DNA of 64,000 bases from positions 1-64,000 of the forward strand of contig CAIYUN010000087.1 in NCBI GenBank assembly GCA_903929355.1. Direction: 5' to 3'. This document shows positions 16,592 through 20,171 of this stretch, piece after piece (position 1 is the first letter of the stretch; each line of letters begins with the position of its first letter). The notes under the pieces were generated by a model. It searched no databases, was not told the origin of the DNA, and saw only the letters and a program-made list of their open reading frames with translations. Origin of the DNA: an uncultured Opitutaceae bacterium. Its GTDB lineage: Bacteria; Verrucomicrobiota; Verrucomicrobiia; Opitutales; Opitutaceae. The position numbers and the translations under genes were made by a program.

Positions 16592-16679
16592 GCCCGGATG
16601 GCGGAATTGGCAGACGCACGGGACTCAAAATCCCGCGACCTCAAAAGTCGTGCCGGTTCGACCCCGGCTCCGGGCACCA
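16592..16679 (+). tRNA. tRNA-Leu (anticodon CAA), CCA encoded
   Basis: 88 nt. The acceptor stem GCCCGGA pairs with TCCGGGC (16669-16675), followed by A and an encoded CCA. The anticodon arm is CGGGA-CTCAAAA-TCCCG, giving anticodon CAA for UUG codons. The long variable arm CGACCTCAAAAGTCG is typical of class II leucine tRNAs, and the T arm GCCGG-TTCGACC-CCGGC is intact. Its 3' 60 nt (16621-16680, including the base after CCA) recur perfectly at 17972-18031 and 18655-18714, making this the intact parental copy and the insertion point of the two downstream cassettes. Confidence 0.97.
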
Positions 16680-16853
16680 TTACTGGCGGTGGAACAGATA
16701 GTTACGAAAGTAGTAGAAACACAATTACGCTTGTGTTACAGAAAAAAACGTAACCAATGTTTAGATACACGTTTCGGTGGTGCTATCGGCTATGGTCCAG
16801 CGGCTTAGGACTTCAGGATTGCTTTTTGTTTACAAATTTTTGCATCAAAGACA

Positions 16854-16870
16854 CGGGACTTTGAGTCCCG
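16854..16870 (+). other. Anticodon-arm-like hairpin 1 (loop UUG)
   Basis: CGGGACT-TTG-AGTCCCG forms a perfect 7-bp stem, or a 5-bp CGGGA/TCCCG stem with the 7-nt loop CTTTGAG. The 5-bp stem is identical to the tRNA-Leu anticodon stem, and U33 and A37 equivalents are present. It closes the conserved left end of cassette 1. Confidence 0.6.
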
Positions 16871-16921
16871 CCAGGAAATATTCACAGTTAAGAGCTTAGG
16901 AGTGTTTCAAATGGAAGACCA

Positions 16922-16938
16922 CGGGATTCATAATCCCG
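16922..16938 (+). other. Anticodon-arm-like hairpin 2 (loop CAU)
   Basis: CGGGATT-CAT-AATCCCG has a perfect 7-bp stem with the same CGGGA/TCCCG base. Read as an anticodon arm it would carry CAU. It starts 68 bp after hairpin 1 begins, in the variable part of cassette 1 ahead of the first cargo gene. Confidence 0.6.
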
Positions 16939-17032
16939 CCGGGAGCCAACTTCTCGCGATCAGTACTAGCCTCCGAAATCCCCATTCCACCTTGCCATTG
17001 TTCGGAGCCCGCCCCAATCTGGAGGGGAAAAG

Positions 17033-17470
17033 ATGACAACCGCAGACTATGCCTCAGGCATAAACGGGTTCCGGCTCCTCAAGAGCGGGGGGGGCGGATA
17101 TGGATACCAACCGACGGCTGAGTTTACTTTGAAATCGGCTTCGCGATTGCTCGCGAATCTTCCCGAATGGTGCGAGCTGGATTTCTTCGACCCCGAGAAA
17201 CCAAAAGAGGAAGCCTACGTGTTCGTGCGTCGCTTCGGCGATACTTACCAAACCATGCGCGTTACGAGGGTGTCTTCAAAGTGGGGTGAAGAACCCTTCG
17301 ATCGAATTCTTGAGCTTTTCATGGCGAGCCCGCTCGTGAAGAAACCGTTCGACGATTTCCCTTCGTTTCAGGTTCGTTTCATTCATATGGACGAGCGAAA
17401 AGCGCGCCACGGAGATTCGTTCGCCCCAAATCGTCCTGCCACTAAGCCGTGGTGGAGATTCTGGCGATAA
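17033..17470 (+). CDS. Cassette 1 cargo protein A, unknown function
   Basis: 145 aa, start ATG 17033 preceded by GGAGGGGAAAAG, a good ribosome-binding site. The protein is charged and aromatic, without signal peptide or membrane segment; recognisable stretches are LPEWCELDFFDPEKPKEEAY, YVFVRRFGDTYQTMRVTRV and a Trp/Arg C-terminus KPWWRFWR. No family is recognised. Base use is less GC-rich than in chromosomal neighbours, consistent with acquired DNA. It is followed after 11 bp by cargo gene B, so the two are probably co-transcribed. Confidence 0.65.
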   Translation: MTTADYASGINGFRLLKSGGGGYGYQPTAEFTLKSASRLLANLPEWCELDFFDPEKPKEEAYVFVRRFGDTYQTMRVTRVSSKWGEEPFDRILELFMASPLVKKPFDDFPSFQVRFIHMDERKARHGDSFAPNRPATKPWWRFWR

Positions 17471-17481
17471 AGGCGTTCCCC

Positions 17482-17820
17482 ATGAATGATCAATTGAGAA
17501 AATCAGTGACCCAGGTTCTCAGGCTTCTTGTTGCCGGCCAGTTTGACGAGTTGGAAGTCCTCACGAATGGGGTCCGGCTTTCCAGTGAGGAAATCGGCAA
17601 GGCAGTCTCCGGTTACGGCAAGATGCTCGTCCTCCCGCCGGAGGACGGCTTCCGGCTGATGGAGATTATCGAAATCAAGAATGCCCAACCCAAGCGGTGG
17701 TCCATCACCATGCCGCTCTGGACCCAGGAGGAGGGACGCTCTGACTTGACGATGGAGATGACGGTCATCGAACGGCAGGAAGGCATCGCCGTTGAACTGG
17801 ACGACATCCACGTGCTTTGA
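17482..17820 (+). CDS. Cassette 1 cargo protein B (WT-x-EEGRSDL small-protein family)
   Basis: 112 aa from ATG 17482 (MNDQLRKSVTQVLRLLVAGQ), with AAAGG upstream; a GTG at 17449 would overlap gene A. The protein shows LRLLVAGQFDELE, AVSGYGKMLVLPPEDGF, then the distinctive MPLWTQEEGRSDLTMEMTV and an acidic end AVELDDIHVL. This pattern recurs in a widespread family of small uncharacterised bacterial proteins (a DUF; I recall DUF7668 but cannot verify). Cytosolic by composition. Members are often found in accessory regions, so an immunity or antitoxin-like role is possible but is inference. Confidence 0.65.
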   Translation: MNDQLRKSVTQVLRLLVAGQFDELEVLTNGVRLSSEEIGKAVSGYGKMLVLPPEDGFRLMEIIEIKNAQPKRWSITMPLWTQEEGRSDLTMEMTVIERQEGIAVELDDIHVL

Positions 17821-17971
17821 CGTTGCATGGCGAACCTTTCGGAAATGCAGCGACTGTTAAACAAGATTCCAACAGGGTAGCCTGCCAGTTCCCTGCTTCC
17901 ACGAGCCAGAAAATGTGCCAAAAAGATCAAAAACGCTGACGCAAGCCAATGACCACCAATGCCCCGTGAGC

Positions 17972-18031
17972 GGACTCAAAATCCCGCGACCTCAAAAGTC
18001 GTGCCGGTTCGACCCCGGCTCCGGGCACCAT
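17972..18031 (+). repeat. tRNA-Leu 3'-half direct repeat, copy 2 (attachment-site-like)
   Basis: A perfect 60-bp repeat of 16621-16680, from GGACTCAAAATCCCG through CACCAT. It lacks the tRNA acceptor 5' strand and D arm (the preceding bases are CCCGTGAGC, not GCAGACGCACG), so it is not a tRNA gene. It marks the junction between cassettes 1 and 2. Confidence 0.9.
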
Positions 18032-18201
18032 TACTGGCGGTGGAAAAGACAGTTACGAAAGTAGTCGAAACAGCATTACGCTTGTGTTATAGAGAAACAC
18101 GTAACCAAGATTTAGATACACGTTGCGGTGGTGCTATCGGCTATGAGCCAGCGGCTTATGACTTCGGCATTGCTTTTTGTTTACAAATTTTTGCATCAAA
18201 G

Positions 18202-18224
18202 ACACGGGACTTTTAGTCCCGTGT
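18202..18224 (+). other. Anticodon-arm-like hairpin 3 (loop UUU)
   Basis: A perfect 10-bp stem, ACACGGGACT with AGTCCCGTGT, around TTT. The inner part is equivalent to hairpin 1 at the matching cassette position but with loop CTTTTAG. The stem is extended by three pairs compared with cassette 1, so pairing is maintained despite sequence change nearby. Confidence 0.65.
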
Positions 18225-18268
18225 CGGACTATTCTCTCAGAAGAGGTTATGAAGGCGAACCCAACGCA

Positions 18269-18285
18269 CGGGATCTGAAGTCCCG
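18269..18285 (+). other. Anticodon-arm-like hairpin 4 (loop UGA)
   Basis: CGGGATC-TGA-AGTCCCG keeps the CGGGA/TCCCG 5-bp stem with a 7-nt loop TCTGAAG; the inner two pairs are a wobble and a mismatch. It starts 64 bp after hairpin 3, close to the 68-bp spacing in cassette 1. Confidence 0.5.
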
Positions 18286-18654
18286 CGCCCTGCCTTCACC
18301 CATTTGTACGCTGGCACTTTGGGCCATTTCGCCCTTGCCATCCTTTGAGGCCCGGCCGGAATTTCCCCATCGATTTGGTCCAGCCCCTTTGACCGGAGCG
18401 GTGCAGGTCGACCCAACCATTTTTCAACCTACGATGTCCCAATCAAAGCCAAGAGGCATTCTTCCGGACGCGGTGGGACCCGACGCGGTCTTCTTGATCA
18501 AGGCATGTGGATCATTGCGATTGACCTATGAAACGACTGTTGAAAAAGTTTCCAACCCGGTAGCCTAACAGTTAACCGCTGCCACGAGCCAGAAAATGTG
18601 CCAAAAAGATCAAAAACGCTTACGCAAGCCAATGGTCATCAATATCCCGTGAGC

Positions 18655-18714
18655 GGACTCAAAATCCCGCGACCTCAAAAGTCGTGCCGGTTCGACCCCG
18701 GCTCCGGGCACCAT
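18655..18714 (+). repeat. tRNA-Leu 3'-half direct repeat, copy 3 (right boundary of array)
   Basis: Perfect 60-bp copy, preceded by the same CCCGTGAGC as copy 2 but followed by unrelated sequence (CGTGGGTCTACACC). It is therefore the right end of the array, and the bases after it may be what originally followed tRNA-Leu. Confidence 0.9.
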
Positions 18715-18814
18715 CGTGGGTCTACACCAAAGTTTGGGGAGGGGCATGATTGGGTTGATGGTTGGTTTTCGGCTTGGTTTCTTGCGTCTGGCCGAATAAT
18801 CATAGGTTTCAATT

Positions 18815-19045
18815 GTGAGCACGATCGCGGAAATCGAAGAGGCCATCGCGAAACTTCCGGCGACGGAGGTTCGCCTGCTGTTGCAACGGCTGCAAGGGCG
18901 CGAGGCGGCGGCTTGGGATCAGCAAATCGCCGGCGACGCCCAAAGCGGACGGCTCGACGCCTTGTATACGCGGCTGACAGAACGAGATGGCGGTCAGCCT
19001 CAAATGTCGCTTGATGAAGTCCTCGACGACCCCAAGTTTTCGTGA
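18815..19045 (+). CDS. Putative antitoxin of RelE/ParE-like module (addiction-module component family)
   Basis: 76 aa, MSTIAEIEEAIAKLPATEVR; the pattern IEEAIxKLPxxExxxL, an internal basic/acidic helix and the C-terminal SLDEVLDDPKFS are typical of short antitoxins that sit upstream of RelE/ParE-fold toxins. The start could also be the GTG at 18815, which the upstream AGGTTTCAATT spacing supports. The next gene overlaps its 3' end by 32 bp in another frame, the usual antitoxin-first arrangement. It starts 100 bp after the last tRNA-Leu repeat, placing the module at the edge of the cassette array. Confidence 0.7.
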   Translation: MSTIAEIEEAIAKLPATEVRLLLQRLQGREAAAWDQQIAGDAQSGRLDALYTRLTERDGGQPQMSLDEVLDDPKFS

Positions 19046-19268
19046 ACGGCTCGCCGGCCTGCCTCCGGACATACGCCGGCTGGCCGTGAAAAACTTCAAG
19101 CTCTGGTTGGCCAACCCGCGGCACCCCTCGCTGCATTTCAAAAAGGTCGGTCGCTTTTGGTCGGCCCGGGTGGACGACGATTATCGCGCCTTGGCGATCA
19201 TGAAGCCAAGCGGTCCCGAATGGTTTTGGATCGGGTCTCATGCGGAGTACGACCGCTTGCTGGGATAG
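19014..19268 (+). CDS. RelE/ParE-superfamily toxin
   Basis: 84 aa from ATG 19014. Recognisable toxin motifs: RRLAVKNFKLWLANPRHPSL, HFKKVGRFWSARVDDDYRAL and FWIGSHAEYDRLL, matching the small plasmid-stabilisation/RelE-like family that inhibits growth by mRNA cleavage or gyrase poisoning. The ATG at 18987 is also in frame, but it lies deep in the antitoxin gene. The pair is probably auto-repressed from a promoter in the 18715-18814 gap, where TTGGGGAGGGGCATGATTGG is seen but no clear operator. Confidence 0.8.
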   Translation: MKSSTTPSFRERLAGLPPDIRRLAVKNFKLWLANPRHPSLHFKKVGRFWSARVDDDYRALAIMKPSGPEWFWIGSHAEYDRLLG

Positions 19269-19446: not shown

Positions 19447-19671
19447 TGGCAAAGCATCGCGGCGACGGTTTCCAACGGTGCGACTGAGGCCGTCGAGCTC
19501 ACTTGCCAGGCCTTCGAGGGCGGCAACGCCACCGGCCAGCTCGTCTTCACCCGCCTCGGCTTCCTCCAATGCGTGCAGGACGTCTGGGCTGAGCTGGATC
19601 CCTGCGGCATGCCGCCCGAGCCTCCCGGTGTCCGCTACGCCGACCACAGCCGGACGATCCTTGTGATGTGA
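19447..19671 (+). pseudogene. Phage-like protein remnant upstream of portal gene
   Basis: An open stretch with no start codon reads ATVSNGATEAVELTCQAFEG and continues to PGVRYADHSRTILVM, then stops 2 bp before the portal-like ATG. The composition and immediate coupling to the portal fragment suggest the 3' end of a phage structural or packaging gene whose 5' part is lost. No exact family is recognised. The region 19269-19446 before it has no recognisable gene. Confidence 0.45.
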
Positions 19672-19673
19672 CC

Positions 19674-20171
19674 ATGGGCAAGCACTCCAGAGCTGAACAC
19701 CGGGCCATGCTCGCTGAAGCCAAGGCCATGGCTTTGCGGCCCGAGCCCCGCCCCGACGGTGGCACCGGCGACGGCGGCTTCGGTGGTTTCGGTTTTGGCG
19801 GCTACGGCTGCGGCAACGGCCACCAGGGCGCCGACTTCACACGCATGCGCGGGTATGTCTATTTCCCATAGCTCGACACCCGCCGCGCGATCACGACCTA
19901 TGCCCGGACCGAGATTCTTCGGCGGTCCCGCTTCCTGGTGGCCAACTATGGGATTGCGCGCCGGATCACCTTCGGCCTCGCCCGCATGGTCGCCGGCACC
20001 GGCCGGGTTCCGCAGCCCACCACCCGCGATCGTGCCTGGAACAAGTTGGCGAAAAATGCCTTCAACCGCGTCGCCGCCTCCCGCATCAGCTACGACCTCG
20101 GCGGCCGCTACGACTTCTATTCCTCGCAGGCCGCCGTCAAAGGCTTCCAGCATCGCGATGCTGGTTGCTGA
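19674..20171 (+). pseudogene. Phage portal protein fragment, amber-interrupted and truncated
   Basis: The frame starts MGKHSRAEHRAMLAEAKAMA, runs through a Gly-rich linker to FTRMRGYVYFP, meets TAG at 19869, and continues in the same frame LDTRRAITTYARTEILRRSR ... AWNKLAKNAFNRVA ... LGGRYDFYSSQAAV before ending at 20171. Both halves look like one lambda-type portal N-terminus, so the TAG is probably a CAG-to-TAG (Gln) change. Only about 165 codons of an expected ~500 remain. It is a prophage relic between the toxin-antitoxin pair and tRNA-Pro. The short hydrophobic ORF after it (20165-20389) is probably fortuitous. Confidence 0.6.

Follow-up and report, generated by a model that had tools for sequence, protein, structure and literature searches.

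The window analysed here is a 64,000-nucleotide stretch of DNA from an uncultured Opitutaceae bacterium (GCA_903929355.1, contig CAIYUN010000087.1, forward strand), and corresponds to contig C87 of a 3.8-Mb assembly of 91 contigs that is 96% complete. At positions 16,592 to 18,714, an intact tRNA-Leu(CAA) gene, identified by ARAGORN, is followed by two short units arranged head-to-tail, each of which runs up to a perfect 60-bp copy of the 3′ half of the tRNA (Table 1). The three copies, including the one within the tRNA gene, all lie in the orientation of a 3′ fragment and span from inside the anticodon stem to CCA; searches of the same assembly gave no further strong match to the 3′ half outside the array. 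An earlier note, made by a model from the letters alone, had described this arrangement, and the tRNA and its repeats are borne out by ARAGORN and the sequence, while the unit sizes and the mismatch counts between ends that it reported were reproduced on recomputation.

Table 1. Features of the tRNA-Leu(CAA) array and of the DNA downstream of it (positions in the window; att, attachment site; attL and attR, left and right att sites of the integrated array; attP, att site of the circular element; ORF, open reading frame; IS, insertion sequence)
Feature	Position	Strand	Remarks
Intact tRNA-Leu(CAA)	16592..16679	+	Integration target, attL side; ARAGORN
att core (anticodon stem-loop)	16617..16637	+	CACGGGA-CTCAAAA-TCCCGCG; by sequence and pattern; 7-nt loop is the presumed overlap
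Copy 1 of 60-bp tRNA 3′ half	16621..16680	+	Inside the intact tRNA plus one base
Copy 2 of 60-bp tRNA 3′ half	17972..18031	+	Junction of unit 1 and unit 2
Copy 3 of 60-bp tRNA 3′ half	18655..18714	+	attR; presumed displaced chromosomal 3′ half
Unit 1	16621..17971	+	1351 bp; two small genes
Unit 2	17972..18654	+	683 bp; no convincing gene
Left end, unit 1	16681..16870	+	190 bp, 42.1% GC; presumed attP arm
Left end, unit 2	18032..18221	+	190 bp, 43.7% GC
Right end, unit 1	17845..17971	+	127 bp, 51.2% GC; presumed other attP arm
Right end, unit 2	18528..18654	+	127 bp, 45.7% GC
Core-like site 1, unit 1	16852..16870	+	CACGGGA-CTTTGAG-TCCCG; left homology best placed ending at its last base
Core-like site 2, unit 1	16920..16938	+	CACGGGA-TTCATAA-TCCCG
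Core-like site 1, unit 2	18203..18223	+	CACGGGA-CTTTTAG-TCCCGTG; perfect arms, pattern match on both strands
Core-like site 2, unit 2	18267..18285	+	CACGGGA-TCTGAAG-TCCCG
Cargo ORF, 145 aa	17033..17470	+	No accepted family match
Cargo ORF, 112 aa	17482..17820	+	DUF7668 (PF24705), Pfam E 6.2e-23
IS-end relic	18718-18744		Directly after the third 60-bp copy
Toxin-antitoxin-like overlapping small gene pair	18815-19268		Downstream of array; second gene ParE-like, Pfam E 5.8e-4, below cut-off
Phage portal fragment	19872-20168 (19447-20171)		Weak PHROG portal match, E 0.021

The two units share their ends and differ in their interiors, as had been claimed. Specifically, the left ends align without gaps with 17 mismatches in 190 bp, while the right ends show 17 mismatches over 121 bp (17851-17971), or 19 over 127 bp at the best-supported boundary. 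A change-point analysis places the end of the left-hand similarity at 16870/18221 with a posterior of 0.54 (16867-16872 jointly ~0.92). Alignment of the unit-1 cargo (17033-17844) with the unit-2 interior (18379-18527) against shuffles gives p = 0.515, and the interiors are thus unrelated. The GC content is 42–51% in the ends, 54–56% in the interiors and 65.6% in the window. The final GAGC of the right end of unit 1, together with the GGA that follows it, forms the attP-side half of the core. The left end has no Rfam match that would suggest tRNA-like folding (+ strand), and elsewhere in the array only sub-threshold matches were obtained.

While the ends have diverged by 11%, the 60-bp copies differ at 0 of 60 positions, an outcome with a chance of 0.0007 had both diverged alike. 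Judged from these sequences, exchange at the copies probably post-dates the divergence of the units. Site-specific recombination is the simplest explanation for identical copies beside diverged ends, gene conversion being less simple, and the same contrast argues against a recent plain duplication.

Unit 1 carries two small genes, one of them a member of DUF7668, and unit 2 carries none that is convincing, in agreement with the earlier description. The 145-aa protein of unit 1 has no relative in the other 386 of the 387 genomes sampled from the phylum, and DUF7668 is matched in 2 of the 372 genomes of the order, this one included. Relatives of the DUF7668 protein at 52% identity (L079, L080) occur in one Planctomycetota metagenome-assembled genome (MAG) and one Verrucomicrobia MAG, and more distant ones in four plasmid records. 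The stretches examined around three relatives (L061, L079 and L080) contain no tRNA and no tRNA-type repeats, so that the cargo leads to no further islets. In L079 (1156-3160) and L080 (118-726) the DUF7668 gene lies downstream of two genes, which we take to resemble TcmP and a DUF5131/Gp37-Gp68 protein, possibly as part of an accessory or defence cluster, and in L080 it adjoins what is presumably an Rhs-like fragment.

For the longest ORF in unit 2 (146 aa, or 150 aa between stops), NCBIfam, Pfam and PHROGs gave no match. The array is overlapped by 43 stop-to-stop ORFs with a length of 40 aa or more, among which the 10 scanned against Pfam gave no match, and the 8 scanned against PHROGs gave a best E value of 0.1, to a family of unknown function. 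Among the unit ORFs scanned (the two cargo ORFs and this subset of the 43), no integrase, transfer or phage family was detected, consistent with the earlier statement that the units carry no integrase of their own. PF00589 has nine matches in the assembly, seven of them over the cut-off and none at this locus; another tRNA is present at five of these nine loci. Elsewhere in the assembly (C40; L059, 688-2967), a possible island of ~2.2 kb consists of a tRNA-Ser(TGA), an integrase-like gene (partial PF00589 match, below the cut-off) and an incomplete repeat of the tRNA 3′ end.

Each unit contains two extra copies of the palindrome that the anticodon stem forms around its 7-nt loop, CACGGGA-N7-TCCCG. 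The earlier note mentions neither these copies, nor the position of the left boundary at one of them, nor the IS-end relic, gene pair and portal fragment that follow the array. In the window, this pattern has six matches at five sites (16617, 16852, 16920, 18203 and 18267) against 0.05 expected, and the shorter CGGGA-N7-TCCCG has five against 0.38 expected. The 3.8-Mb assembly has no match beyond these six, and a reversed control pattern has none at all. Across the 115 genomes searched, 57 (own included) have at least one match, mostly with other loops. The internal loops CTTTGAG, TTCATAA, CTTTTAG and TCTGAAG are all unlike the tRNA loop CTCAAAA and unlike one another. Site 2 of unit 2, with its flanks (ACGCACGGGA...TCCCGCGCCCT), equals the tRNA-Leu stem of three congeners (G001, G002 and G005) save for the 7-nt loop.

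The best placement for the end of the left-hand similarity is the final base of site 1, so that the left block lies between the att core and a core-like site. Past site 1, similarity between the units falls short of significance (p = 0.08 for the stretch from site 1 to site 2, and 0.10 after site 2). With two units to compare, the position of this boundary may be a coincidence or a simple constraint of the palindrome. Site 1 may also be the terminator of a lost leftward gene; it is one of two terminator-like sites, against 3.1 expected in shuffles. Inspection by eye of ~3.5-kb stretches near five tRNAs of the assembly's own integrase-bearing loci, a noisy test that allowed 2 mismatches, revealed no comparable cluster of palindromes. 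The literature consulted on related islands, which was not searched with hairpin copies as a term, gave no report of target-hairpin repeats inside an element.

Searches for the unit ends elsewhere were negative throughout. The assembly itself contains no other significant match. The left end has no convincing match in the other 251 of the 252 family genomes searched (at most three candidates scored in each listed genome), and the right end has none in the other 371 of the 372 order genomes searched (at most two candidates scored in each listed genome). A 28-nt left-end match in G285 (L049) lies between chaperonin genes, which we take to be groEL/groES-like, and was rejected as chance. Exact end patterns gave no convincing match in genome contigs, and the two matches that such patterns gave in IMG/VR viral contigs (L088 and L091), both in phage genes, were judged to be chance. 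The ends gave no convincing blastn match in phage and plasmid records, where weak 37-nt matches to one phage (E = 0.2) and 32 plasmid records (E = 0.7) were put down to chance as well. When the whole 2123-bp region was used as the query, 176 of the 189 genomes matched, own included, and among the matches listed those from other genomes all fall within query positions 1-106, that is, the tRNA and its edge.

The tRNA-Leu(CAA) locus was obtained from four of five congeners, G003 giving only tRNA-Leu(TAA). G002 retains the order tRNA-Leu, tRNA-Pro, ligA with other genes filling the gap, and G001 has one gene of the same kind between tRNA-Leu and tRNA-Pro; we take the genes at this position in both genomes to be DUF4159-like. 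G004 and G005 have in common an unrelated sequence after tRNA-Leu(CAA). In stretches of two congeners (L064, 10693-11585; L065, 1-835), TTGTGCTCTTT motifs are repeated in direct and inverted orientation right after tRNA-Leu(CAA). The sequence shared by L064 and L065 may be another islet with this target, and both contigs stop less than 0.9 kb further on.

Downstream of the array, the DNA looks decayed. The stretch adjoining the third 60-bp copy has a 27-nt match downstream of the tRNA in G013 (L067), which was considered as an empty site and rejected, because the match looks like the end of an IS and is thus no evidence. Specifically, with at most 1 mismatch allowed, G013 has 24 occurrences of a 22-nt pattern from this end, 10 of which lie no more than 130 bases from a contig start, and the assembly under study has 3, one with a mismatch. 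In G013 the stretch adjoins a transposase-like C-terminus, and the end is presumably ISL3-like. Beyond the toxin-antitoxin-like gene pair lies the portal fragment, which is 30% identical to Akkermansia phage Moulinsart and has relatives in 3 of 56 other genomes; together with neighbouring broken frames, it is probably what is left of a prophage between tRNA-Leu and tRNA-Pro. The surroundings of tRNA-Leu(CAA) thus look like an integration hot spot with decay.

Taken together, we think it rather probable that the two units are non-autonomous, integrase-less islets specific for tRNA-Leu(CAA), of the type of cis-mobilizable elements (CIMEs), which were inserted by the integrase of another element and accreted in tandem. 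A circular unit would join its right end, the 60-bp tRNA 3′ half and its left end into an attP-like region carrying a small insert. The enzyme would be a tyrosine integrase of the anticodon-loop class whose gene lies on another element, not found in the assembly; it would recombine this attP with the tRNA gene, the exchange probably taking place within the 7-nt anticodon loop CTCAAAA. With each integration a working tRNA would be restored and the previous 3′ half displaced, and the tandem would result from a second such event at this target. Since no integrase was detected in the units, we infer a helper in trans; this helper, the circular intermediate and the order of integration are read from the arrangement of the DNA, and the units may be fossil.

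Several observations favour CIME-type islets. According to the accessible parts of the sources, repeats from the anticodon stem to CCA are a signature used for mapping tRNA islands (PMC4383910), and such tRNA-restoring repeats are the footprint of anticodon-loop tyrosine integrases (PMC4383910, PMC8371274). The att core in Table 1 is modelled after the description available from PMC8371274, where the overlap and core-site layout correspond to a 7-bp loop and its stem. With 190 and 127 bp on either side of the 60-bp core, the unit ends are similar in magnitude to the attP of ~250 bp given in PMC4383910. Unit 2, the gene-less unit, lies farther from the target, as do the most decayed CIMEs and microCIMEs according to PMC7563491. 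The reading is further supported by the variable content of the tRNA-Leu locus among congeners and by the higher AT content of the ends relative to the interiors and the window.

Other observations weigh against it. The definition of a CIME demands descent from an integrative and conjugative element (ICE) or an integrative and mobilizable element (IME), and none with the same ends was found. Gene conversion could also yield three identical 60-bp copies. No arm-type integrase sites emerged: within its ends, each unit has 0 shared 8-mers (null mean 1.55), the 6 and 5 shared 7-mers (null mean 5.97) are at chance level, and the inverted pair CTTTTTG is the one 7-mer pair kept in both units. The earlier note advised a search for a tyrosine recombinase tied to the units, and the 96%-complete assembly yielded no helper integrase with matching ends. 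At the tRNA-Leu(CAA) loci of relatives, which it proposed to compare for the number and cargo of units, a second tRNA 3′ half occurs in 0 of the 29 examined, which came from the whole-region search (39 views, ten of them duplicates, reaching 141 to 9431 nt downstream). No stem-N7-stem palindrome (at most 2 mismatches) occurs in the first 3000 nt downstream at these loci, while the locus under study is positive for both. This absence is soft, because several views are short, with contigs ending there. Finally, no second example of the ends turned up in anything searched, so that mobility is deduced rather than observed. The earlier note had itself named ends found nowhere else as evidence against its proposal, and a general mobile cassette system is accordingly not shown. 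From its proposal of trans-mobilised cassettes or islets, tRNA-anchored units without a detected integrase stand, while their circulation in relatives is unsupported so far.

The soundest alternative, which we regard as unlikely but well worth weighing, is that the units are fossils only: two larger integrase-bearing islands or prophages would have integrated in turn and each lost its interior, with nothing moved in trans at the present size. Deletion is the usual origin of CIMEs in the available accounts (PMC5704250, PMC7563491), the IS-end relic and the portal fragment suggest decay downstream, and no helper was found in the assembly. Yet the scanned unit ORFs retain no integrase, transfer or phage family, and two independent deletions would have to leave only the ends intact and, on the left, stop exactly at the final base of a core-like palindrome.

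A system resembling integrons but built on tRNA anticodon stems has, in our view, a slender chance. Here the left block would be a fixed, reusable platform and inserts would be swapped at internal sites by an integrase acting in trans, the internal CACGGGA-N7-TCCCG copies serving as extra binding or exchange sites for the same integrase with differing overlaps. This would account for the end of left homology at site 1, the lack of significant relatedness beyond it and the confinement of all six palindrome matches of the assembly to this locus. However, just two units could be compared, with no further example found; the four internal loops differ from CTCAAAA and mutually, which would normally block exchange; and the right-hand boundary has no such site.

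We consider it very improbable that one unit was duplicated locally and then diverged, with replacement of one interior: it would suit the ends that the units share at a single locus, with order and orientation unchanged and no further occurrence in anything searched, but the 60-bp copies are identical while the ends are 11% apart, and the interiors are unrelated. Hardly credible is a chimeric assembly of strain variants, for although the assembly is fragmented and the repeats are near-identical, the perfect repeat is just 60 bp, shorter than usual sequencing reads, and each copy of the ends has its own differences.

If CIME-type islets such as these are mobilised in trans, an attP region with almost nothing added is enough to carry genes, and cassette arrays could exist at tRNA genes, outside integrons. 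From the copies of the target hairpin inside the units follows a directly testable prediction on integrase binding. As in the islands catalogued by Islander, an intact tRNA gene and a displaced 3′ fragment in the same orientation flank the island; the unit lengths of 1351 and 683 bp lie outside its 2–200 kb range, and no integrase gene lies inside (no PF00589 at the locus; ORFs scanned). The catalogue admits no candidate shorter than 2 kb or lacking an integrase (PMC4383910), so that islets like these would be missing from it.

CIMEs and microCIMEs are known precedents for small tandem elements that lack an integrase (PMC7563491). In Streptococcus, for example, these lack integration and transfer genes, keep both att sites and accrete in tandem at the 3′ end of the target gene; classical CIMEs measure 1.2–13 kb and gene-less microCIMEs 130–220 bp, the most decayed lying farthest from the target, and in S. 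agalactiae CIMEs occupy a tRNA-Lys gene (parts of PMC7563491 and PMC5704250). Likewise, the units appear from their sequence to keep attL and attR and have no detected integration or transfer genes among the part of their ORFs scanned. They differ in that no parent ICE or IME was found, that no integrase-bearing tandem partner is present here, and that they hold extra internal core-like palindromes, which the portions of PMC7563491 and PMC5704250 at hand do not mention for CIMEs.

Other tandem systems are more distant. In Dehalococcoides, tandem islands follow downstream of a single tmRNA gene, with ssrA or its 3′-end repeat as their boundaries; sixteen have an integration module, while others are discussed as cis-mobilizable elements (part of PMC3146451). 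Unlike the units, these islands, as portrayed there, use a serine recombinase and a 20-bp repeat and belong to an rdhA-rich region. The additive island fGI-2 of 'Ca. Methylopumilus' has recurring 20-bp tRNA-Lys-end repeats with variable content over 330 bp to 42 kb (part of PMC10872708); its repeat is 20 bp rather than 60, and conserved ends are not described for it in that part of the paper. Tycheposons are tRNA-bordered cargo elements of 4–200 kb with their own tyrosine recombinase (same part of PMC10872708), whereas the units have no detected recombinase and fall outside that size range. Integron cassettes and clusters of attC sites lacking an integron-integrase (CALINs) likewise have exchangeable cargo, but here the site is a tRNA half and there are two units, with no PF00589 match at the locus that could represent an integron integrase. 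In a comparison of layouts with elements that exploit Xer, presumably the class named IMEX, the presumed core has a 7-nt centre within the anticodon stem. The dif layout, by comparison, has two 11-nt arms around a 6-nt spacer (available part of PMC8371274). What distinguishes the tRNA-Leu(CAA) array is the combination of near-minimal content, conserved attP-like ends in both units and internal target-like palindromes.

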